Shown here one piece after another: positions 1 through 233 of a stretch of 64,000 bases of DNA; within the stretch, counting starts at the first letter, position 1, and the number at the start of each line of letters is the position of its first letter. The notes under the pieces are model-generated. The model saw only the letters and a list, made by a program, of their open reading frames with translations, did no database searches and had not been told where the DNA came from. The position numbers and the translations under genes were made by a program. The DNA is from Sphingobacteriales bacterium (GTDB lineage Bacteria > Bacteroidota > Bacteroidia > Chitinophagales > JADIYW01), in NCBI GenBank assembly GCA_947460245.1, contig CANHGL010000001.1:1-64000 (forward strand), given 5' to 3'.

Positions 1-162
1 AGGGACTTCCCGATATGTATCGGGATAAACTTCTCGTCCCCCACATACGCTGATCGCTCTACCTTTACTTTGTGCGGGTGGAGGGACTTCCCGATATGTA
101 TCGGGATAAACTTCTCGTCCCCCACATACGCTGATCGCTCTACCTTTACTTTGTGCGGGTGG
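1..162 (-). repeat. Two identical 81-bp tandem units derived from the tRNA-Leu 3' end
   Basis: Positions 1-81 and 82-162 are identical base for base. The first bases of a third unit (163-169) merge into the tRNA-Leu gene and then diverge. Read on the minus strand, each unit has a linker of about 32 bases, then a GGGGG arm, a 33-base loop, and CCCTCCACCCGCA, which is the 3' T-stem and acceptor end of the neighbouring tRNA. The normal 7-base T-loop is replaced by a longer one holding a perfect hairpin (TCCCGAT/ATCGGGA). The array touches the window edge, so more copies may lie outside. It lies directly downstream of the tRNA, so it would be in the tRNA's transcript or trailer. Confidence 0.9.
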
Positions 163-233
163 AGGGACTCGAACCCCCATGGTTGCCCGCTAGATCCTAA
201 GTCTAGTGCGTCTACCAATTTCGCCACACCCGC
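154..233 (-). tRNA. tRNA-Leu (anticodon UAG)
   Basis: The minus strand folds as a full cloverleaf. The acceptor stem is GCGGGTG/CACCCGC with discriminator A at 154. The D-arm region resembles known bacterial tRNA-Leu, the anticodon stem is CTAGA/TCTAG with loop CTTAGGA (anticodon TAG), and the T-arm is GGGGG-TTCGAGT-CCCTC. The 3' CCA is not encoded. The variable arm is short for a class II tRNA. A TATCTTTG promoter element lies 11 bases upstream of the 5' end. Its last 16 bases are repeated at 73-88 in the adjacent tandem array. Confidence 0.95.

Follow-up and report, generated by a model that had tools for sequence, protein, structure and literature searches.

Palindrome-marked tRNA-end repeats beside tRNA-Leu(UAG) probably derive from a tRNA-seated GIY-YIG homing-type mobile element of Bacteroidota

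Here we report that a short tandem array directly downstream of tRNA-Leu(UAG), in the draft genome of a Sphingobacteriales bacterium, probably consists of nuclease-less, non-autonomous copies of a homing-type mobile element that sits at tRNA genes and encodes a GIY-YIG nuclease. The element class itself is well supported; the array is placed in it by comparison with equivalent units at other tRNA genes. Genes for tRNA are classic targets of mobile DNA, most of the invaders known so far being large islands or introns. The elements described here are about 70-480 bp long, occur at many kinds of tRNA in a very common gut and environmental phylum, leave the tRNA intact and carry recurrent palindromic scars. 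With them it can be tested how a minimal nuclease distinguishes between its target and its own copy, and they may help to account for the small GIY-YIG ORFs, incomplete tRNAs and breaks in assemblies near Bacteroidota tRNA genes.

The window, by which we mean the whole stretch of 64,000 nucleotides analysed (G000:C1:1-64000), opens contig C1, which is 265 kb long and one of the 85 contigs of the draft, and the number of units counted in the array is a lower bound. A sequence-only reading of this DNA had proposed two identical 81-bp units. The identity at period 81 is perfect over bases 1-169, forming an exact tandem repeat directly 3' of the tRNA on the minus strand, but only one unit is complete, the second being represented by 71 of its 81 bases (71-1), as the contig begins partway through it. 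Each unit is composed of a spacer, a hairpin and an exact copy of the tRNA tail (Table 1). The same reading had measured GGGGG, a 33-base loop and CCCTCC, with a loop 26 bases longer than a T-loop, and both measures were right. The hairpin that it described, TCCCGATACATATCGGGA (TCCCGAT-acat-ATCGGGA), is indeed perfect, with arms of 7 bp. Folded as a single strand, the unit reproduces a long T-arm-like hairpin of -26.6 kcal/mol (z = -3.1). The hairpin is no chance occurrence: the pattern TCCCGA-N2-10-TCGGGA is confined to these two sites in the 64-kb window and is found in none of 100 shuffles.

Table 1. Coordinates of tRNA-Leu(UAG) and of the adjoining array in the window
Feature	Position	Strand	Basis
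tRNA-Leu(UAG), intact; sequence same as in repeat-less relatives	153..233	-	ARAGORN, Rfam RF00005 60.6 bits, comparison with L002-L006
17-nt tRNA 3' tail re-used in each unit, AGTCCCTCCACCCGCAC	153..169	-	exact string match
Unit 1 spacer, no ORF	107..152	-	ORF list, sequence comparison
GTGGGGGACGAGAAG, look-alike of T-arm 5' strand, pairs with copied tail	111..125	-	sequence and fold
Unit 1 palindrome TCCCGAT-acat-ATCGGGA, at T-loop position	89..106	-	palindrome search
Unit 1 copy of tRNA 3' tail	72..88	-	string match
Unit 2 spacer, identical to unit 1; T-arm look-alike at 30-44	26..71	-	period-81 identity
Unit 2 palindrome	8..25	-	palindrome search
Unit 2 copied tail, start only, cut by contig end	1..7	-	window = contig start

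Ordinary duplication of a tRNA gene was rejected, since ARAGORN and Rfam each detect a single tRNA and no second full-length foldable one; Rfam has no match outside the tRNA. Integron attC sites and CRISPR were weighed from the layout alone (palindromes, 81-bp period) and set aside.

The same site was compared in relatives. A sister species (G002) carries one diverged unit at tRNA-Leu(UAG) (L002), with the hairpin TCCCGACACTTCGGGA; this unit and the window unit have the start GAGAAGTTTATCCCGA in common, while loop and spacer differ. Five other relatives (G001, G004, G005, G006 and G007) possess tRNA-Leu(UAG) without the unit, and in G001, G004, G005 and G007 the empty-site tRNA is followed by another sequence and then by a trigger-factor-like ORF. 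Across 13 family genomes GAGAAGTTTATCCCGA is found exactly only at tRNA-Leu(UAG), and its two one-mismatch matches both lie in unrelated sequence. Because the site is filled in G002 and empty in five relatives, and GAGAAGTTTATCCCGA is exact nowhere else, the window unit is a site-linked feature, recently gained or lost, and no product of assembly. A random spread of the hairpin with no link to tRNA genes, a prospect raised by the sequence-only reading, was searched for and not seen. A dispersed REP-type palindrome was rejected on the same distribution, together with the lack of any other TCCCGA palindrome in the 64 kb.

An assembly artefact at a contig end would be in keeping with an array that the contig edge truncates. 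Such an origin is nevertheless extremely improbable: the independent diverged copy lies within a contig of G002 and excludes an artefact for the unit itself, and arrays occur inside contigs of other genomes, which limits the uncertainty to copy number. The trigger-factor-like protein that adjoins tRNA-Leu(UAG) in G002 and G004 was sought in G000 to locate the far side of the array; it has no match there, though the assembly is rated complete, and the array was left unclosed. Just after tRNA-Leu(UAG), the empty-site relatives have an inverted-repeat sequence of another kind in common (AATGTTGTCATTCTGAACG...CAACATT; L003, L004, L005 and L006). Within the genus, empty and filled alleles are seen at orthologous sites of three tRNA genes: tRNA-Leu(UAG), tRNA-Asn and tRNA-Val.

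Equivalent copies exist at many other tRNAs, many of them with a nuclease gene, and the earlier suggestions of a small mobile repeat and of something other than an ordinary tRNA duplication pointed in the right direction. In G000, 30 tRNA loci were scanned for tail copies with hairpins. At tRNA-Leu-CAA there are at least three units with tail copy and hairpin, each with its own terminator, and the contig breaks in the array. The tail copy with hairpin at tRNA-Val belongs to a unit that contains a GIY-YIG ORF, and contig C59 starts with GIY-YIG units of tRNA-Asp type, an assignment resting on comparison of their tail CGTCCGGACCGC with tRNA-Asp of relatives. Equivalents at Lys and Arg are less exact, and an upstream copy at tRNA-Met is less clear. 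In the genus, GIY-YIG ORFs stand between the intact tRNA and a palindrome-interrupted tail at Val, Ser, Asn, Arg and Lys. Two further contigs of G000 break inside tRNA-end arrays (L066, the end of C42, at Leu-CAA; L082, the start of C59, of tRNA-Asp type), which suggests that assemblies break because of such arrays.

To survey the phylum, a profile was built from 11 tRNA-linked GIY-YIG ORFs of the genus, and it matched in 95 of 148 Bacteroidota genomes. A same-strand tRNA is present at 94 of the 109 loci found with this profile, a proportion that is no unbiased rate of association because the profile was itself built from tRNA-linked ORFs. At 76 of the 109 loci the end of the adjoining tRNA is partially copied; a reversed-end control gave 1 match, which we take to be an N artefact of the same kind as those removed from the copies. 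The full element consists, in order, of an intact tRNA, often a terminator, a GIY-YIG ORF (Pfam PF01541; 62-127 aa, median 84) and an incomplete repeat of that tRNA in which a palindrome interrupts one loop. The mirror (5') form starts with the partial copy, and the ORF then precedes the intact tRNA. Between tail copies, full elements hold only the GIY-YIG ORF in the stretches inspected. An island with integrase and att site was rejected, as there is neither an integrase nor a cargo-sized insert and the 81-bp units have no ORF.

Leaving out rows with false copies at single tRNAs, the survey lists 105 distinct copies, 71 of the 3' end and 34 of the 5' end of a tRNA. Break points of 3'-end copies cluster 16-18 nt (T-loop) and about 31 nt from the tRNA 3' end, and those of 5'-end copies cluster as far from the 5' end as the D-loop and the anticodon lie. 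The window copy departs from its tRNA 17 nt from the 3' end, inside the main peak. A palindrome is usually found at the break point, with mean stems of 6.1 and 6.7 compared to 4.0 in shuffles, and the palindromes comprise 34 different 6-nt arms, all still perfectly paired. At the tRNA-Val site the changes are two-sided (TTCCGAT..ATCGGAA versus TCCCGAT..ATCGGGA). The repeat had been supposed to target T-arms. This describes the window, where the palindrome occupies the T-loop, but is too narrow in general because the site varies by element (T-loop, anticodon or D-loop) and mirror forms copy the 5' end.

These copies also bear on whether the array is a functional RNA, a mimic or decoy of tRNA ends for RNase P/Z, the CCA-adding enzyme or tRNA-cutting nucleases. 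The extended T-arm-like fold and the position downstream of a tRNA gene speak for such a role, which the sequence-only reading had raised for an RNase or the CCA enzyme; we consider it very unlikely. The 34 copies of the 5' end are without the 3' end, both the tRNA part copied and the palindrome position vary (5' half or 3' half; D-, anticodon or T-loop), and the recurrent partner is the ORF of a DNA nuclease. Moreover, several units come after a terminator, Rfam matches nothing but the tRNA, and relatives without the unit show it to be dispensable.

Units without an ORF, about 70-200 bp in length, are common and often tandem, with sizes of 85 bp at L164 and L127 and 96 bp at L133. At L175 and L139 they stand beside full units, with the same palindrome and ORF remnants, resembling MITE-like non-autonomous derivatives in that internally deleted copies retain the element ends. 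The tRNA-Asn of G002 (L245) has four ORF-less units of 96-97 bp upstream and one ORF-bearing unit downstream, with nearly the same palindrome replacing the same ten tRNA bases (CATCTGACTG). Judged by these likenesses, the 81-bp units of the window appear to fit the ORF-less class. Their derivation is argued by analogy because no GIY-YIG ORF is found at tRNA-Leu(UAG) in G000 or the genus and the window spacer contains no recognisable ORF remnant.

The catalytic residues of the nuclease are essentially invariant, Y17, G19, R28 and H32 being present in 68 of 68 ORFs and E64 in 67 of 68. Full elements thus carry an intact GIY-YIG catalytic domain, which the ORF-less window unit does not. The nearest solved structures in the PDB are UPF0213 and SLX1, the latter annotated as structure-specific. 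No family was found for the ORF in NCBIfam or PHROGs, and no phage, plasmid or viral-contig relative; phage or plasmid cargo was rejected for want of such a match, and a defence system for want of any match in PADLOC. On a tree of 68 ORFs (86 columns, many forks unresolved), target isotype requires 25 changes versus 43.5 when shuffled (0/300), host family 40 versus 48.1, and insertion class, which is clustered, 24 versus 32.8. Nuclease phylogeny therefore tracks the target tRNA much more than the host family. Taken together, the tRNA-following tree, the invariant residues and the empty and filled sites form a pattern that would be expected of site-specific elements moving between hosts.

The comparisons above establish the architecture, the tRNA specificity, the pattern of mobility, the ORF-less forms with ORF remnants and the tandem amplification; beyond these we propose the following mechanism. 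The nuclease would cut at or near a tRNA loop, and repair of the cut would copy the element in. The palindrome, whose role we infer, would destroy the target in the spare tRNA copy and so prevent re-cutting. Recombination between the repeated tRNA ends, perhaps stimulated by the nuclease, would then expand a unit into an array, with one intact tRNA staying at the array end. At tRNA-Leu(UAG) the ORF would have been lost, only the palindrome-marked tail and spacer being repeated. For the recombination step there is a precedent in the phage GIY-YIG enzyme SegB, which causes a tRNA-segB segment to be amplified in tandem through recombination (PMC13096335). The broader view, that these very small elements form an apparently undescribed, phylum-wide class specific to tRNA genes, in which the palindrome of the spare partial copy separates self from target and a GIY-YIG protein of median 84 aa drives both spread from one tRNA allele to another and the growth of tandem arrays, with nuclease-less units such as those of the window being shed, stands in our judgement about evenly balanced.

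The palindrome interrupts the spare copy, and the intact tRNA-Leu(UAG) is unchanged relative to empty-site relatives; thus some feature beyond the sequence of the tRNA would have to protect it from self-cleavage. One alternative concerns the role of the hairpin only and leaves the element class unchanged: the palindrome may be the substrate of the nuclease or the end of the element. An SLX1-like, structure-specific enzyme would then cleave the cruciform of the spare copy, and the released ends, which are homologous to the tRNA halves, would drive integration and the growth of arrays, much as in REP/BIME with RAYT. Sparing of the intact tRNA would be accounted for, the nearest structures include structure-specific SLX1 beside UPF0213, arm sequences vary while perfect pairing is kept (with the two-sided changes at tRNA-Val), and another GIY-YIG subfamily of the genus is flanked by REP-like palindromes. 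We regard this alternative as possible but rather doubtful, as one small enzyme would need two unlike reactions and the position in a tRNA loop is predicted directly by the model of target interruption.

A further reading invokes no element at all, only simple slippage or unequal crossing-over next to the tRNA. It has a counterpart in the tandem repeats at E. coli tyrT (rtT RNA), which re-use a tRNA 3' end; those repeats are not known to involve a nuclease, an inserted hairpin or mirror-image forms. Identical 81-bp units are consistent with such an origin, and recombination alone can yield tail copies, but as a full explanation it is very unlikely, leaving unaccounted for the palindrome at the break point, the recurrence at many tRNA kinds, the 5' mirror forms and the nuclease ORFs. 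As the step of amplification, slippage or unequal crossing-over is possible.

Compared with known systems, the elements can be filed with the free-standing homing endonucleases, as a variant for which we found no description in the literature searched (preprints and most subscription journals were outside its scope). With the SegB-type enzymes of phages (PMC13096335) they share the GIY-YIG domain, a place adjoining tRNA genes and tandem amplification of a tRNA segment, and they parallel the SegB-driven amplification recently shown there. Unlike SegB of T4-like phages, the Bacteroidota elements have an ORF of median 84 aa, reside in bacterial chromosomes, contain a palindrome-interrupted partial tRNA and are specific to one kind of tRNA. 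Islands that integrate at tRNA genes through a tyrosine integrase, with att in the tRNA 3' end, likewise duplicate the tRNA end and restore an intact tRNA, whereas the Bacteroidota units measure about 70-480 bp, lack an integrase ORF, bear a palindrome in the copy and include 5'-end forms. REP/BIME/REPIN sequences with RAYT are similar in tying short palindromes to a small nuclease and in having non-autonomous copies; here the palindrome forms part of a tRNA copy instead of being dispersed, and the nuclease is GIY-YIG, not Y1. A second GIY-YIG subfamily of the genus (g1; L072, L074, L077, L081, L086, L091, L099 and L100) is located away from tRNAs, and most of its members have REP-like repeats at their flanks, GTCATTCCCTTGTAAAAGGGAATCTC for example. 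The subfamily resembles RAYT/REP with a GIY-YIG protein in the place of RAYT.
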